A DNA stretch of 64,000 nt from NCBI GenBank assembly GCA_025201375.1, contig JAIWZP010000050.1, forward strand, positions 1-64,000, given 5' to 3'. Numbering within the stretch: position 1 is the stretch's first letter; each line of letters opens with the position of its first letter. The stretch is from Gongronella butleri. Taxonomy: Eukaryota > Mucoromycota > Mucoromycetes > Mucorales > Cunninghamellaceae. The notes under the pieces were generated by a model. The model was given only the letters and a program-made list of their open reading frames with translations, was not told where the DNA came from and made no database searches. The position numbers and the translations under genes were made by a program. Of the stretch, positions 2,480 to 63,300 are shown piece after piece.

Positions 2480-3345
2480 TCGAAAATGTGAGTATTTAGA
2501 GTCATTGTGTACCAACTCGGCGGAATCTCGGCGCAATGTTTCCGAAACACCATCGCATTTACTGTCTTTCATCACAGATTCATTTGAGATAACTCGCGCT
2601 TCGATACGTTGGGCCGTTGTCGCATACGCTACCAGAATGGACAAGATCTTACCCTCTTTTTGCAGAACGCGTCCTCCGGATCTTGTTCATCGCGTCTTAT
2701 ATTTGAGATAGAGCATGCTAAACACTAAAATCCGGCGATGTCAAGTTTCTTTCAGAAATCGGATCACACAGTCGTGAGAACATCCATTTTGCAAAATTTC
2801 AGGGCCAAATCAGAACCAACAAAACAACCTCCAAATGCTAACAACTCGCCGAAAACCTGACGCGATATCATCCCCAAACCACAAGCGCTTTTACCGCGTC
2901 TGCCCGCTGATTCAATTGCGGTGATTCACGTGTCGGGGCGCTCAGCCGTTGCCGCTGTACGAGACAAAATGGTACAGATCTTACCCTTTACTGTACGCCT
3001 GTGAAACTGGCGCTTCATCAGAAATTTGCGCATCTGGTCCCAAATTTGAACCAGTTGATGGTAGACCTCATTCTCCAGCGGTGTTAATTTTGCTCGCGAA
3101 TCGAATCGCTCAGTCTCGAGAAATCTCGAGATTTGTGTTTGCTAGTGAAACCTCACCAGCTCCGAGCAGCATTTTACGCGTTTCTCCCGATGCGGTCCGC
3201 CGTCTGGCTCCAAATTTGAATCAGTGGATAGTCGACTTAAAAATCGGATCACTCAGTCGTCTCGCGAAATCTTGAGATTCGTCGTGTTTGCTACTGTAAA
3301 CTGTACAGTATTAGTGAAAACCCAGCGTCAAATAAATTTTTACGC
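2480..3345 (+). repeat. Dispersed repeat family A, copy 1 (tandem sub-units)
   Basis: This stretch matches 31530-32960 in order and orientation. It contains repeated sub-units: a CAAACCACAAGCGCTTTTACC type block followed by GATTCATTTGAG appears near 2546 and 2875 here, and near 31718, 32030 and 32525 in the other copy. Other shared pieces are AATCAGGGCCAAAT, CTCGCCGA and TTTCTCCCGATG. No coding frame survives in either copy. Several differences between copies are 5-bp TACWG-type insertions. Confidence 0.8.
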
Positions 3346-3399
3346 ATTCCTCCCGACGAGGCTGACCACCACATACAGTACGGTACAGTATGCTGTATG

Positions 3400-3960
3400 T
3401 CAAACAGCACTCTTTTCAGTCGATCGGCGTTCATCATCATGCGTCACTCTTTGGGCTTTACAGTATTTTTCTTAAGTTACCGGTAGGCGACGCGGCGACC
3501 TGCCATTTTTGTCTGCCAATAGCATATGGTCGGAGCTACCTGTTTGGGATGCATTGATCACTCGGAGCTAGAAATTTCCCAAATTTGGCGTTTTCTGGGA
3601 TTGAAATGTGTGGCCCCTGAATTTTTCAAAAGCGGTCCTAGCACTTTGGGTGCTTAAGTGTTTTAGTTGCAAATTTTGCGCTGAATGCGATGCAGTTATT
3701 TTTGAGCGGGATCGACCAAGCAGATGGCGAGATAAATGCTCCAAGATAGGGCAAAATTGAGGTTTTTGGAATTTGCGGGCTCAAAAAAAGTCGTGCGGAC
3801 CCATCTCAAGCACTGGTCTGTAGTTCATCTCGTGGCACAGCTTTCATTGGCGGGAAGCTGGGCTGTAAAAAAAAAACTGGAGGCACAGCAGGTCGGCGGC
3901 AAACAGGCAAAGTTTGAAAAACACGCTTTCCAACGGCAAATGCTTACTTTTGCGCGACGT
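3400..3960 (+). repeat. Dispersed repeat family B, copy 1
   Basis: Matches 34020-34390 in the same orientation. Shared landmarks are CGTTCAT...ACTCTTTGGGCTT, GCGACCTGC, TACCTGTTTGGGATGCATTG followed by ATCACTCGGAG, GATTGAAATGTGTG, TTGCAAATTTTGCGCTGAAT and GAGCGGG(A/G)TCGACCA. Family A precedes family B at both loci, so A plus B is probably one longer element. The end (GGCAAAGTTTGAAAAACACGC near 3916) recurs near 62645. Confidence 0.75.
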
Positions 3961-4114
3961 GCAGAAGCGTGTTGCTGTAAAATGTACTCTGTCTCGTCAG
4001 CTTGTATACAGTAGGAGCTTGCTGGATTAAAAATTAAACGAGCGCGTACGAGCAAATTATCTGGTGTAAACGCGAGCAAAAATTAAACGTCTGGAACAAT
4101 GATTGGGTGTTCTA

Positions 4115-4308
4115 CAGTTTCTGGATATATCGGTTTCAAAAATTTTCGATTTTGTTTGCTGCCGATATACAATAAAAGCCTGCCAAATGCCAATATAATG
4201 AGCGGATTTTTCTAGGTTTTCGACTTTTATATGTAAACCATTTTTTGAAAGCTGCCGATATAGCGAGGAAACCGATATAGCATGTGCCGATATATCCAGA
4301 ACCTACTG
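4115..4308. mobile_element. MITE of Tc1/mariner (pogo-like) type with CAG...CTG ends
   Basis: The left end reads CAGTTTCTGGATATATCGG. The right end, read inward on the minus strand, is CAGTAGGTTCTGGATATATC followed by GG, so TTCTGGATATATCGG is shared as a terminal inverted repeat. Each end is flanked by TA (4113-4114 and 4309-4310), the target duplication of this superfamily. Several internal CCGATATA motifs repeat the subterminal sequence. At 194 bp it has no transposase and must have been moved by another element. The left end lacks the AGG triplet present at the right. Confidence 0.75.
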
Positions 4309-4310
4309 TA

Positions 4311-30775: not shown

Positions 30776-31380
30776 AAATGCTCGCCCCCCCCTACACATT
30801 CCTTTTCAACACACCCACCCAAACACCACTCGCTTTGTTGTTCTTGCTACTGCTTCTTCTCTCGTATTCTCTCTTTTTCTATACTTACCCCCCATTTCAC
30901 ACGCTCCTTTTCTCTTCACTCGTTTGTTACTATGGATAATAATAAATATTTTTCAAATAAAAGGTCCCCACTACAATGGCTCAATATTAAAATATTGCCT
31001 AGGGACTAACAAAAATGGTGGAAAATCTATAAACTTGACGTTGCTCGAGTTACAGCTAATCGATTCGTTTCAAATTTGAAAAAAACGAATTCTAGTAGAC
31101 GCTTGGTCTTTCCATAAATAAAAGTGTAGAAATCACGGTTTTGACGCGCTTGACGTGTCAATGCCTCGTGCAAACAGCGATAAAACCAGAAAACGTAGTC
31201 TTGCCGCTGCGTCTGCTCTTCTTTGGCGTGCATTGTTCAATCGGGCAATGTCGCCGCTCCGCTCTACTGTAAAAAAAGGTTGTTGCTGTCGCCTGGTCAT
31301 CTCAATTTAAGTGTAATTCATGCGCTTTGCGGGAAGAATGCGCAGTTTCCACAATCTCAGTCTCGGTATGGGCGCATCAT

Positions 31381-31419
<39 letters not shown>

Positions 31420-31529
31420 GCGGTGCGCGGACAAAAGGGCGCTTTGAGCAATGATAGGTTGCGCCACTGCCTCGCATCCAGCGCAACCACAAACGGATGA
31501 TTAGGCTAAGGCCATACCCTTTTTGCTGG
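30776..31529. other. 3' flank of the coiled-coil gene and a 33-base A run
   Basis: AATAAATA and AATAAAAGG near 30940-30962 are probable poly(A) signals. A pure 33-base A run lies at 31383-31415. A TACTGTA footprint is at 31265-31271. No gene is found. Confidence 0.5.
31383..31415. repeat. 33-base A homopolymer
   Basis: Longest homopolymer in the window. It could be the tail of an old retro-inserted transcript, but no recognisable body precedes it. Confidence 0.9.
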
Positions 31530-32960
31530 ATACGTCTTTGGAATCGTGTTTTATCGGATCCTATATTTGAACTAGAGAATGATGACTACAAAACTCCAAC
31601 GATGTCCAATTTTTGCAGAGATCGGATCATTCAATCTCGAGAAAATGCATTTTGCGTAAAATCAGGGCCAAATTGACCCCGTGATAACCAACTCGTCGAG
31701 ATCTCAATGCAATCTCTCCAAACCACAATTGCTTTTACCACCTTTGGCTGCTGATTCATTTGAGGTGTCACACACGTCGATACTTTGCGCCCTTGTAGCG
31801 TGCGTTACCAAAATGGAAAAGACCTTACCCCACTTTAGCATGGCGCGTCCTCTGGATCTTGTTCATCGGATTCTATATTTGAACCAGAGGATGACGAACA
31901 CAAAACTCCAACGATGTCAAGTTTTTTCAAAGATCGGATCGCTTAGTTCTGAGAAAGTGCATTTGCATTAAATCAGGGCCAAATCGACTCGGTAAAGGTT
32001 AACTCGCCGAGAACTCGATGCGATATCTCCAAACCACAAGTGCTTTTACCGCGTTTGGCCGCGGATTCATTTGAAGTGACGCATGCGTCGGAGCGCTCAG
32101 CCGTTGACGCCGTACGAGATCAAATGGTGGTGATTTACCTCTTATGCCCATGAAACTGGCGTTTCATCCGAAACTTGCTCTTCTGGCCCCAAATTTGGAC
32201 CAGTTGATAGTAGACCCAATTCTTCAACGGTGTTAATTTTTTTCGTGAATCGGATCGCTGAGTCTTGAGAAATCTCGAGATTGGTGTTTGCTAGTGAACA
32301 CCCAGCGCAAAACAATAATTCACGCGTTTCTCCCGATGAGGTTGACCATCTGGCTTTAAATTCGAACCGGCGGATACTCGACTCGAAACTTCAATTATAT
32401 CAATTTTTTTCTTAAATCGGATTACTCAGTCCTGAGAAAATGCATTTTTCATAAATCCAGGGCCAAATCAGGATGAAAACGATTCTTAAAGGCTAACTCG
32501 CCGAAAACTTGAAGCGATATCCTCAAACCACAAGCGCTTTTACCGCGTTTGACCTCTGATTCGTTTGAGGCGACTTTCGCGACGGGGTGATCCGCCGTTG
32601 ACGCTGTACGGTACGAGATCAAGTGGTGGTGATTTTACAGTACCCCCTTCTTTACGTCTATAAACTGGTGCTTCATCAGAAACTTCTTGCTCATCTGGCC
32701 CCAAATTTGGTCCAATTGAAGGTAGACCTAATTGTTGTTCAACGGTGTTAATAATTTTTTTTCGTACTGTAAATCGGATCTCTGAGTCTTGAGAAATAAT
32801 CTTGAGATTCGTGTTTGCTAGTGAAAAAAACCCACTAGCGCAAAACAATAATTTACGCGTTTCTCCCGATGAGGTCGACCAGATGGCTCCAAATTCAGAC
32901 TAGTAGACCACTCAGTCCTGAGAAAACACATTTTGCATACTGTTTGTATATTCAAGGCCA
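31530..32960 (+). repeat. Dispersed repeat family A, copy 2 (at least three tandem sub-units)
   Basis: Homologous to 2480-3345 but longer. The sub-unit starting with the CAAACCACAA(G/T) block recurs near 31718, 32030 and 32525, i.e. spacings of about 312 and 495 bases. Each full sub-unit carries CCGTTGACGC, AAACTGG(C/T)G, CAACGGTGTTAAT, TTTCTCCCGATGAGG and CAGGGCCAAAT. No intact frame is present. Internal sub-units differ by TACWGTA insertions, which makes this locus the best evidence for excision scars. Confidence 0.82.
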
Positions 32961-34019
32961 AAACAAAATCAAAAACTCAAAATCGCCTATTGTCGTCGAA
33001 GCAACAACAACGGTCAAAAATTAAATAAATGCAGCGAGCGAACCACATTTTTAGCCAAAATTAGATGACGACTACTCTTCTACGTACGCAAAAGTCAATT
33101 TTGGCTTTACGCACTGTACGTCTGTACCTACTGTATATTATCCCTTCACTGTCAAATGAGACCAATTTCACTGAAATGTGCGTCCAAAGCTGATCAAGAA
33201 ATTCATGTTTTGCAGTAGTATTAAAGACCACAAACCATGGTTGTTGTGTGGTGCTTGTTGTGTTGTCGCCTCTCCAAACCTACGCATTAGGTTATTTTTG
33301 GGCGTCCGTTTCCTACTGTACAAGCTCTTCTTCTTACAGTACATAAAAAGCAGAGAGGTCATACTGTATTGGTGGTCTTTGTGCAGATGAATCCAAAATG
33401 CCATTACTGTATTTTCACAAATTTGGTACAGGGTCTCAAAATATCTTGTGGATCGCGGTGAAAATGGCATCGAACAATGGAAACGCACTCATGTGCCATT
33501 TTCAGATTGATTGTTTGCCCGACGATGGATGAACTTTGCATGATGCTTGCAAAAGTCGTTCAAACATTGGATTAATTTTAAAACTCACTTTTCTCGACAG
33601 CTGGAAGCACAACCCACGATGCTTTTAACTTGTCGTAGGCAACTGTTGAATCTCTATCGAACGAGACCAGTTTCACCAGTGGATGGCCAAAACTGGCAGA
33701 GAAAATACACTTTTTCAACAAAATCTTTGATCACGATTTGCTCAACAACGGTCTAATCAACCCCAGATTTTTGTTGCAGCAGATTTGATAACAAACAGGG
33801 GGGCAAAGCATCTACGTAATGAGATCTATGACTTGCAGCGCGCTAACTTAGATTTGAACTTTTTGCATCAGTCATTTCACCAGGCTGATGGCCACTCAGC
33901 GCACAAAAGTGCACAAAATAAAAAAATAAAAAAATACAAAAAAAAATAAAAAAATCCATGCAATCCACCACCTTAATTTGGAAGTGTCAAACCTTAAATT
34001 TTGCAAAAAAAAATCTTGA

Positions 34020-34390
34020 CCAAAGCAGGCACTTTTCTCAATCGATCGCCGTTCATGCGTCTCTCTTTGGGCTTTTTTCTTACGTTGGGGCGACCTGCTG
34101 TCATTTTGTCTGCCAAGAGCAAATTGTTGGAGTTACCTGTTTGGGATGCATTGATCACTCGGAGTTCGAAAATTTCCAAATTAGGTCTTTTCTGAGATTG
34201 AAATGTGTGACCCCTGAGTGACCCCTGAATTTTTCAAAAGTGGTCGTAGAGTTTTGGGGGTTTAAGCTTTTTTGTTGCAAATTTTGCGCTGAATTCGATG
34301 CGACTGTTGTTTTTGAGCGGGGTCGACCATACAGATGGAGAGTGACAGCAGGTCGGCAAAGTCTGAGAAACTCGCTTTTTGGTGTTTAAG
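34020..34390 (+). repeat. Dispersed repeat family B, copy 2
   Basis: Homologous to 3400-3960 and in the same relation to family A. Contains GATCGCCGTTCAT, CTCTTTGGGCTT, TACCTGTTTGGGATGCATTG and TTGCAAATTTTGCGCTGAAT. A local duplication, GTGACCCCTGAGTGACCCCTG, sits at about 34207-34227. The end GGCAAAGTCTGAGAAACTCGC recurs near 62645. Confidence 0.75.
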
Positions 34391-36177
34391 TGAGTGTTGT
34401 ACTGTATGATTTAATTATTGATTTGCATGATTACAGTATTATTATTGTAGGTTTGTACAGTAGTACTAGTAGCGCGATGCCTTGTTTGGGCTGTTATTGG
34501 CATGTTGGGCATTGAAATCTGCCTGGAAGAAGATCCGCACCGACTTGCTTGCAGTGGTAATGGAATGCGTCTGTGAACAACGAGAACAATGAGCTCAATC
34601 AGCCAGGCACGCGTTAATGATACTGTACGAGTACTGTACTGCATACAACAGTATGATCATACGACGACAATTGGCTGATTTTAATTTGATTTTGATTTTT
34701 GGTGGTACTGTAAACGTGCAATTTTTTTTTCGCAATTTTACAGTATAATACAGTACTGTACACATAGAGCGTGGCAAAAAAGTAACACCATTCAATTCTA
34801 AATTAAATTTATTATGATAACATTCGGGGGCAACGCGCTACACCCCCCTAATAAGCATCATCCCCTGGGATCCATCTACAGTAGCAACAGCGTATGTAGC
34901 AAATATTCAAGAGATGAAAACGTCTCCTCGCTCGTCAACCAAGCAAAAAACAAGTCTTTTGCGCAAAATTATTACGACGGATACAGTACATACCGGTACA
35001 GCGCATGTTTACTGTAAAGCCGCCGCCACCGCGAGGTGCAGGTGCTCTTTAAGGGGGAATTTGTTCGTACAGTACTGTAGTACAAATACAGTATCATACT
35101 GTAGCTACTGTAGATCAATGAAATGAGGCGCGCTATATTTTGCGTACTGCTGTACGGGTACAGCCTTGCTTGGCGCGTTGTATGATCACGCGCGTCTTGA
35201 AAATAAGCTCTGTGATATTGGTACCTTGCTTGTCGTCAATGGTGATGAGATGAGGAGCACCAGCGTGCGGTTTGACAAGGGCGTTTTGTGCAAATTACTA
35301 CTCTATTGTCGAAGCAAATTCGGTCGTCACCCTGGCGATTTGGCAAGGAAGACGGTTATTGAGCGGGCTATGGCGCTGCTGGTAAGTTTGCCTGATCAGT
35401 TTTGCTGTCGAGGAGAGACAGCCAGGACTGTTGGGTGTTGGCTTGGGTTTTGGTGGCGGTAGCAGGTTTTCTTTGTGAATTTCCACTACATACGTGCGTG
35501 AGCGTACCTATGCTGTATGATGCCGATGGGCGCGATCACACCGATCTATCACAGACTTCTACTTTTGAATGCACTTTTTTATAAGCATCGTATGCTTTTT
35601 AGCAACATGCGACATTATACAGTATGATAGTTGTTGTCGTACAATAAAATGTGTTATAAAAATTCCCTTGCAACTAATTCAGATCTATGGATGTCAGATG
35701 CGCACCCAGTCTTTTACGGTATGTACAATACATGCAACGAAACTCAGCGTCATTACTGTATATTGTCTTTTGTGCAAAACAAGCCACTTTCAAGAGCATC
35801 ATAGGTTCGTGATTTATTTTCAAGAGATACTATTTAATAGAAGATGTGGCCAATCTACCGGGTGCATGAGAGCATTACCTAGCGAAAGAGATTGAAAAAA
35901 TACAAAAATATCATAAAAAGATGCCCGCAGCTGTTGACCTTTTAATCATTGCACCTCGACACAGCAAGGTCCTACTAGGCAGCATTATTCTTCTCAAAGA
36001 GCAGTGTCATGATGCTTTGATATAAAAAAGTGTATTAGGAAGACAATGTTTAGCTGAATCAGAGATGAAAATAAATAAAAACGGGCGTGCGAGGGGTAGA
36101 AAAGGGCATCGATGCAAAGTAAAGTAATAGAAAAGAAAAAATGAGATTGAGAAAAGACGACAGACTACGTAGGACTT
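34391..36177. other. AT-rich region dense in TACAGTA/TACTGTA heptamers
   Basis: Between 34400 and 35760 I count 18 TACAGTA or TACTGTA heptamers, several overlapping (for example 34739-34760 and 35068-35112). There is no coding signal. One possible Tc1-like terminus lies at 34756-34790. The part from 35800 to the PPZ stop holds nothing recognisable apart from A-rich tracts. Confidence 0.7.
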
Positions 36178-61651: not shown

Positions 61652-63300
61652 GGCGATAATGAAAAACGAGAAACAAAAACGTGAAACTAAAAAAAGAAAA
61701 AGACAAAAAGACAAAAGAGGCGAAGCGCCCAGCACCGAAAAACATCTTTTTTGAAATTTAATGTCCGCTCCGCAAGCGAAAACGGGTCGCACCTCCGCTT
61801 TTAGCCGTAAAAATCGCGTTTGATCGCGCCACGAAACGTCACATGAATGACGGCGCACATCACCTTTCCAACATCCACTCCATCACTCGGCTCAGAAACA
61901 AGTAAATACAATATGCAAACCGATCAATCGCGTCAGTGCCGAGAAATTCTACATTCTCACAAAATACAGCTCTTTTGCTCCAAATGATGGATCTTTTGAA
62001 ATCCGCGTGACTTGCATCATTGCAAAACGGCACATCTAAGCATCATTTGATCTACGATTGGGCATGCCGATGGACATACCTTACAAGTCTTCAAAATGCA
62101 ATCAAACTTGTCCAGCTGGATTTTCTCGGCAATAGACAGGGCAAAATACCACGTGACGCCGTCACAAAAGGTGCAAATTTCGGCTCCACGTCGCTGAAAG
62201 TCGAGTTGGTCCATTTCCGACATTATGGGACAGAGCAATCGAATTTTCCAAGATACAATTTCCTTTTTTCGTCATGCTGGAGATCGTCCTAGTCGACCCC
62301 CGATTTTTTTTGGCACCGGGCACGAGAACTATGTAATCTTTGCAATGCAAAGTTTGTTCTTGATCGTGATGAACCCTGGATAGCTTGCAATAGCCAGGTT
62401 CAAAAATTTCGTCGCGAGCACTGGGCTCGTGGGCTCCATCATGCGCTGTATTTGTGCCGTGACACGATTGTCATTGGCGGGTAGGTATGGTATGATGCTG
62501 TAGATTGTAAAAAATGACTTATTTGGAGGCAAAAAAAAAAAAGCAGATTGTCAAAGACTCAAAAATTTGAAAAACAGGCATTCTTTTTTTTCATCTGCAA
62601 ATTTGTGTAGCGTGTCGTGTCGTGTCGTGTCATGTCACCAGACCGGCAAAGTCCGAAAAACACGCTCTTTCGTTTTTGGTGTTTAAAAAATAAATAATTT
62701 TACGTTTCTTTATCATGCATCAGTGTAACGCGATGCTTCAGGCATATTTGAGTTGATACAGTAGTGAAGGTATTAACTGTATCAAGCTGTAATTAATGCA
62801 GCACGCCACGGTCATGCCAAAATGAAGCCAGAGGAGGCTGCCTGGTGGCAAAATGCAAAATGCAAAACGCCGGGCAATCCCCTTTCTGGTGATGAATCAG
62901 TGTTCATTTGGCTTCAGGGAGCTGCATATTATAGGAAATATTTCATTCAAGTGGCAGCAATCGCTGAAGAAGCGTGCGTAACAAGTATTTATCATATATG
63001 ATATTGGAGATGGTGGAGGATGAGAGGCAAAATATTAAATGGAATCGAAAAAGTGCTGTGTGCCGAGAATGCCAGATAATGCAAAGAAGGATGCGGAACA
63101 GATGCGAGTATAAAATATGAGGGGATAGTTTGGCTACAGTATGATACTGTATGCCCAAGAAAATGCGAAAAAAAGAGGAGAATTAAGCACGAAATGACAT
63201 GCAATGCGGGAAAAAAAAAGGCGAGAGAATCAACAGGTCATGCACGGGTTGAGGATGAGGTAGGGGCGGGGAATCAGACTAAGATCATGTAATAGAAATA
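61652..63300. other. Gene-poor region with a third trace of repeat family B
   Basis: CGGCAAAGTCCGAAAAACACGC near 62643 followed by TTTTTGGTGTTTAA matches the family B ends at 34350 and 3910. A (CGTGT)4 microsatellite lies at 62611-62630. Three TACWGTA scars occur at 62757, 63135 and 63145. No gene found. Confidence 0.5.
62611..62630. repeat. CGTGT pentanucleotide microsatellite
   Basis: Four perfect CGTGT units, followed by a degenerate CATGT. Confidence 0.8.

Follow-up and report, generated by a model that had tools for sequence, protein, structure and literature searches.

TACWGTA words as probable excision footprints of Tc1/mariner transposons in the genome of Gongronella butleri

Introduction

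Sleeping Beauty is moved by a Tc1-type DD34E transposase, the fungal Tc1-like element impala has CAG ends and leaves triplet footprints, and the internal eliminated sequences (IESs) of Paramecium are bounded by TA and have a Tc1/mariner-like consensus at their ends. We know of no genome-wide accumulation of scars for impala. Open-licence PubMed Central (PMC) articles report that Sleeping Beauty leaves a TAC(A/T)GTA footprint (PMC3432063), that excision of Stowaway-like miniature inverted-repeat transposable elements (MITEs) and mariner elements in grasses leaves footprints (PMC4561436), that 8 of 94 DNA transposon excisions in rice were perfect (PMC4423477), and that IESs account for tens of thousands of excisions per Paramecium genome (PMC8354472, PMC6143343), which are precise and programmed (PMC6143343). 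Here we analyse a 64,000-bp window of the Gongronella butleri genome, in which the heptamers TACAGTA and TACTGTA very probably represent cut-and-paste excision footprints of Tc1/mariner transposons (DD34E, TA target, CAG or CTG terminal triplets). An earlier sequence-only reading of this stretch had proposed excision scars of a Tc1/mariner or pogo-type transposon; a pogo-type source is not required.

The scar, the TA target and the Tc1-type DD34E transposase are those of Sleeping Beauty, whose scar was made experimentally, whereas about 16,000 have accumulated in this one genome, together with further triplets and with resident elements that are themselves flanked by scars. Short non-autonomous elements lie at TA alongside autonomous relatives, as described for the grass Stowaway and mariner elements (PMC4561436). 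In comparison with the rice excisions, exact 5-bp scars are plentiful here, failed and deleting excisions being outside the count, and unlike the precise removal of Paramecium IESs, every event counted is marked in the assembly by a scar of 5 bp. In titles and abstract openings of the open-licence PMC literature we detected no genome-wide count of natural TACWGTA scars and no scar-targeting Tc1 element. As a footprint the heptamer is textbook material; what is unusual is the scale, the presence of several triplets and the residents flanked by scars.

Results

Word counts and distribution

The window comprises bases 1-64000 of contig C57 (assembly of 33.0 Mb, 110 contigs). TACAGTA and TACTGTA are mutual reverse complements and were counted as the single motif TACWGTA. 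The window holds 40 such words (18 TACAGTA, 22 TACTGTA), 27 of them in the main cluster (Table 1), exactly as counted by eye in the sequence-only reading; its chance figure of about 8 is correct at even base composition, and the expectation under a first-order Markov model is 1.1. Genome-wide, TACWGTA occurs 16,213 times (8,059 + 8,154) vs 6,355 (3,176 + 3,179) for the reversed-word control. In 20 regularly placed 10-kb stretches (200 kb in total) we found 110 words vs 3.4 expected under the Markov model, making TACWGTA the top over-represented non-simple 7-mer, so the proposed enrichment is present in both comparisons. The eight further loci chosen by a word-containing pattern (L001-L008) entered the alignments and partner tests described below and were kept out of the enrichment and stacking counts.

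Alteration of either TA abolishes the excess in the 200-kb sample (TACAGTG, 12 vs 8.6 expected; AACAGTA, 5 vs 10.6), indicating that both flanking TAs are required. The distance between TA dinucleotides has its sole peak at three intervening bases, 414 compared with 209-289 for the remaining gaps between 0 and 11, and the words are clustered, with 165 of 200 one-kb bins empty and an index of dispersion of 8.7; both figures include a tandem array in locus L023 that holds 23 of the 110 sample words (87 lie outside it). This array (L023 6533-6743) has a 9-bp unit, GTACAGTAT, made of the TACAGTA word and present in 22.9 copies, and is apparently a scar amplified into a satellite. With the array masked, 12 of 127 scars fall inside open frames of at least 180 amino acids, real or not, vs 2,508 of 7,802 TA dinucleotides. 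The earlier remark that no words lie in coding exons thus holds as depletion and not as absence.

Two sampled loci, L016 (C1:1500001-1510000) and L022 (C17:100001-110000), contain the dispersed repeats of the window yet have 0 and 2 TACWGTA words, respectively, suggesting that scar density is set by the place and not by the repeat itself.

Five-base insertions in single repeat copies

All sampled loci and the window were aligned mutually, and 552 of 1,702 alignments passed the filters (length of 120 bp or more, identity of at most 99.5%, self and mirror matches removed), with distinct indel sites binned by three bases. A site was scored as TANNNTA to TA when the longer copy, shortened by five bases, retains one TA, whether or not the partner carries TA. 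This was the case at 19 of 94 distinct 5-bp indel sites, and the three inner bases at all 19 were CWG (16) or CGG/CCG (3). For indels of 2, 3, 4, 6, 7, 8, 9, 10, 11 and 12 bp the TA cases numbered 0, 5, 5, 3, 1, 3, 1, 1, 0 and 2. The three repeat comparisons made by eye in the sequence-only reading (2989, 32607 and 32636) are indeed 5-bp insertions relative to other copies and belong to the 19; position 32765 is the fourth member from the window. Two sites, 32765 and L015 4181, have partners with CG or CA in place of TA, and for both a substitution prior to the insertion has to be assumed.

In a strict partner test, where the partner must have the dinucleotide and close flanks, 6 of 92 TACWGTA and 3 of 10 TACSGTA words passed, compared with 0 of 136 TANNNTA words not of the CNG class and 8 of 3,247 controls. 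This test is spoilt by gap placement and neighbouring changes, and a deletion test was therefore added, in which five bases are taken out of the word and the edit distance to the sister copies is recomputed, a gain of at least 4 against some partner counting as a pass. TACWGTA passed in 44 of 77 cases, TATCATA/TATGATA in 16 of 29 and TACSGTA in 3 of 8, compared to 12 of 93 for other TANNNTA words and 170 of 4,194 for XYNNNXY words with eleven other dinucleotides, many of which overlap scars. Both of two complementary control dinucleotides were counted in the partner and deletion tests; L005, which overlaps L004, was left out of the deletion test and included in the indel tally and the strict test. 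An identical word was found in the partner copy for 5 of 92 aligned TACWGTA words vs 1,360 of 3,247 control words. The TACWGTA words are therefore private to single repeat copies, and the alignments show them to be 5-bp insertions at TA and not ancestral sequence.

Resident Tc1/mariner elements

PF13358 (DDE_3) has 74 matches in the genome, many sharing score and frame length, and none of them is on contig C57. Matches to both PF13358 and PF01498 (Tc3-type helix-turn-helix) above the cut-off were detected in L044, L050 and L048, and a D2-E spacing of 34 (DD34E) in L044, L047, L050 and L051; the DD34E motif search gave no D2 match in L048 and L045 and no match within a frame of at least 180 amino acids in L037 and L035. 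The named relatives of the transposase are fungal among the 120 matches listed. The element ends fall into five types; terminal inverted repeats with TA on both sides were found in L044, L047, L048, L050 and L051, while types 3 and 5 were read at one end.

Type 2 (L050, L051 and part of L046) is a DD34E family whose ends read TA followed by CAGTGCCCGGACA. The element is CAG...CTG-ended, CAGTGCCCGGAC...GTCCGGGCACTG adjoining TA on both sides, and carries a 360-amino-acid frame. Its autonomous copies in L050 and L051 share 99.85% identity across 1,352 bp. Genome-wide, type 2 has 130 ends; for the 100 listed, the distance between paired ends is about 1.01 kb in most cases and about 1.34 kb in eight. 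Type 3, the 336-amino-acid family, has a left end of TA followed by CTGGATTTGTCC, with the triplet CTG (CTGG) and six different flanks. Five near-identical copies of this family (L036, L037, L038, L040, L041) run up to an apparent contig end, and the element may break the assembly. CAG/CTG terminal triplets are accordingly present at the type-2 ends and the type-3 left ends, and such ends predict the scar TACWGTA. The genome thus holds CAG-ended Tc1/mariner elements, some nearly identical to each other, for which the sequence-only reading had proposed to search.

Type 1 (CCRTMCCCTAC; L044, L045, L047) measures 1,368-1,403 bp from the outer CWG and has inner ends CCGTACCC or CCGTCCCC; L015 carries a 1,017-bp relative with CCATACCC. 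This 1.0-kb element (L015 5152-6168) is by eye one long fold-back inverted repeat, in which only the outermost bases match the autonomous element. There are 67 type-1 inner ends genome-wide; pooled with a second genome-wide place list they give 31 paired elements, and in 25 of these the inner ends are 1.00-1.04 kb apart. Type 4 is a 1,630-bp element in L048 with TA followed by CCGTGGCTCTC; its score class has eleven matches, and ends were read for L048 only. Type 5 (L029, L035) has TA followed by CTGTATTTGTCC, one end being read.

The complete genome-wide place lists have no type-1 element on C57, the contig of the main cluster, and type 2 has no place on C57 among 100 listed of 130 ends, which follow contig order and include C56 and C58. 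A joined-flank search with five element junctions detected no empty-site homologue within the sampled loci.

Flanks of the resident elements

Directly outside the element's TA, TACWG is present at 112 of 130 type-2 ends and 58 of 67 type-1 ends. The orientation of the flanking triplets was direct in 35 of 66 paired elements (type 2, 27 of 41, from 100 listed of 112 places; type 1, 8 of 25), and the bias is opposite in sign in the two families, with two-sided p of 0.06 and 0.11, respectively. A 7-bp TACWGTA target duplication by type 1 and type 2 was rejected, since only these 35 of 66 are in direct orientation. No clear pre-insertion consensus was found beyond TA, the flanks of 116 sites being little different from nearby TAs.

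One explanation, which would add to excision, is that types 1 and 2 (CAGTGCCCGGAC) favour the middle TA of CWG-TA-CWG, that is, earlier scars; we give this just short of an even chance. It would account for the frequency of the outer TACWG and for its free middle base (at type-2 ends 46 A and 54 T among the 100 listed; at the 67 type-1 ends 41 T and 26 A), while the type-2 element's own triplet is fixed, TACTGTGCCC not being found in the genome. Left and right flanks are independent, as the orientations show, and not all residents are flanked in this way: outer TACWG occurs at one type-4 end genome-wide, the total of type-4 ends being uncounted, although L048 sits among scars, and at 0 of 6 type-3 left ends. 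At L051 391-418 two type-2 elements, one autonomous and one not, meet head to head, their ends sharing one TA with no extra unit, which also fits landing in scars. Against it, double CWG stacks are no commoner than random re-use predicts, and no empty target was found in the sampled loci.

The alternative, which we consider a serious possibility although well below even, is that types 1 and 2 in truth have the outer CWG as their terminal triplet, with a middle base that is re-drawn at each jump. The number of outer CWG units at type-2 ends peaks at one (none at 18, one at 77, two or more at 35 of the 130), as this would predict, and the outer triplet is common to two families with different inner ends. 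The same peak disfavours a model in which elements re-insert at their home site and every stacked TA is equally likely to be chosen. A re-drawn terminus is harder to reconcile with the ends that have no exact outer TACWG (18 of 130 for type 2, 9 of 67 for type 1) and with the L051 junction, where the outer unit is missing, and we know of no Tc1/mariner transposition step that re-draws a base. We slightly favour landing in scars over a terminal triplet that is unfaithfully inherited. The empty type-2 allele should be TACWGTACWGTA in the first case and a plain TA in the second.

Further triplets and stacked sites

TATCATA/TATGATA (TATSATA) behaves as a second 5-bp scar species that shares ladders with CWG, with 50 words vs 5.9 expected in the 200-kb sample. 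Its 16 of 29 passes in the deletion test are an upper figure, as some words lie in stacks, where removal of any unit helps; solitary words that pass include L015 4082 and L004 2492. No TATSATA word is among the 19 insertion sites, and the strict partner test gave 0 of 33. Stacking on its own kind was seen in 0 of 64 units (null, 3.5), and in this respect the species fits the scar reading less well than CWG does. A scar species of this kind predicts a TCA/TGA-ended family; no such transposon was found among the sampled loci.

CCG/CGG was seen as a scar (32607) and has matching element families. TACSGTA, predicted from CCG ends, is a minor scar species (12 vs 3.5 expected in the same sample). 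TACCATA, predicted from CCA ends, has 16 words vs 4.6 expected, two or more of which are the ends of the L015 element, and 1 of 3 passed the deletion test.

The sequence-only reading had taken overlapping words to suggest repeated visits to one site. Stacks of CWG alone give no excess, 9 observed vs 9.5 under random re-use of TA (8 vs 9.3 with the L015 element masked), and runaway CWG stacking as a general rule was rejected. Over the four classes CWG, TSA, CSG and CCA/TGG, stacks of at least three units number 10 vs 1.96 expected, a value reached in 0 of 400 simulations. Repeated visits are thus supported only in part, by the taller stacks of several classes and not by the CWG stacks. The L023 array was masked in all stacking counts, and the L015 element also in the four-class analysis.

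Features of the window

The words and repeats of the window are given in Table 1. Region 31500-34400 has at least 81 matches genome-wide, from the best 40 of 1,451 first-look candidates scored. A Pfam scan of eight window frames gave two matches and no more, to an F-box and to the N-terminus of a phosphatase. The F-box protein has a single distant homologue in the search, from the mucoromycote Gongronella butleri (32%; best 7,999 candidates scored), which together with the fungal relatives of the transposase makes an early-diverging fungus likely as the source.

Table 1. Clusters, words and repeats in the window, in window coordinates unless a locus is named; "scar" marks a word read as a probable excision footprint.
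Feature	Position	Strand	Basis
Main cluster, 27 TACWGTA words between open frames	31265..35760		word count
TACAGTA scar	32636..32642	+	five bases absent from other repeat copies (empty copies in L026 and window)
TACGGTA scar, CGG/CCG species	32607..32613	+	repeat alignments, partner and deletion tests
TACTGTA scar	32765..32771	+	partners five bases shorter, with CG, CA or AT at the TA position
TACTGTA scar in second cluster	2989..2995	+	repeat alignment
Double stack TA-CAG-TA-CTG-TA	34749..34760	+	sequence
Double stack TA-CAG-TA-CTG-TA	35068..35079	+	sequence
Mixed stack TA-CAG-TA-TCA-TA-CTG-TA, two scar species at one site	35087..35103	+	words at 35087, 35092, 35097
Mixed stack TA-CAG-TA-TGA-TA	35618..35629	+	sequence
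Diverged dispersed repeats hosting many scars; sister copies serve as unscarred comparison	31515..34342		alignments
Second, smaller TACWGTA cluster	2989..4310		word count
Third, small TACWGTA cluster, TATSATA words interspersed	62757..63151		word count
TATCATA/TATGATA words	2467, 34813, 35092, 35623, 62990, 62997, 63140; L007 2229-2250; L045 2436-2447		

Discussion

The enrichment of TACWGTA, its origin as private 5-bp insertions at TA, and the near-identical resident elements with matching CAG/CTG ends support the excision reading, and we consider it very probable that these words are footprints of Tc1/mariner transposons. At strand level the cutting and joining would follow the analogy of Sleeping Beauty. 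The element would lie between two copies of the target TA, and on the non-transferred strand the transposase would cut three bases into the element at either end, leaving each flank with TA and three bases. The two tails would pair at C and G with the middle base mismatched, and end joining would yield TA-CAG-TA or TA-CTG-TA, five bases beyond the empty TA. Different terminal triplets would give different scars.

Several points weigh against excision as the source of the words. In the deletion test 33 of 77 aligned TACWGTA words fail, and the strict test was passed by only the 6 of 92 mentioned above. The aligned repeats are 65-85% alike, which makes gap positions partly ambiguous, and some unscarred partners have no TA. 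The roughly 16,000 CWG words stand against an estimated 110 or so resident CWG-associated elements, or about 150 words per element, which calls for very many excisions. The evidence comes from one assembly, and the search of the sampled loci yielded no site that holds an element in one copy and a scar or an empty target in another.

If selection retained or multiplied the words as a binding or regulatory motif, or if they reflected a sequence bias of repeats, their clustering and their rarity in long open frames would be accounted for. Neither selection for a motif nor descent from an ancestral repeat would produce words that arise as exact 5-bp insertions and are almost never common to repeat copies, and this explanation was rejected as very improbable. 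A reading of the words as termini of very small MITEs still in place is more improbable still: TACAGT...ACTGTA does resemble the ends of a CAG-ended element, but the aligned insert is 5 bp with no element, the four TA-bounded inverted pairs reported for the window are scar words in three cases and a chance match in one, and the known elements measure 1.0-1.6 kb with none in the window.

The excision half of cut-and-paste transposition usually leaves nothing countable; here the scars allow past excisions to be counted in one assembly, and the middle triplet of a scar hints at the kind of element that departed. The ratio of excision to retention, the choice of target and the accuracy of end joining in nature become directly measurable. 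If landing in scars is true, every scar leaves two TAs where there had been one, and the tall mixed stacks record successive visits by different families. As a tentative picture, to which we give somewhat less than an even chance, two Tc1/mariner families land in earlier scars, excision makes the next target, and the elements circulate in scar clusters away from genes; if so, this would be a transposon making its own targets.

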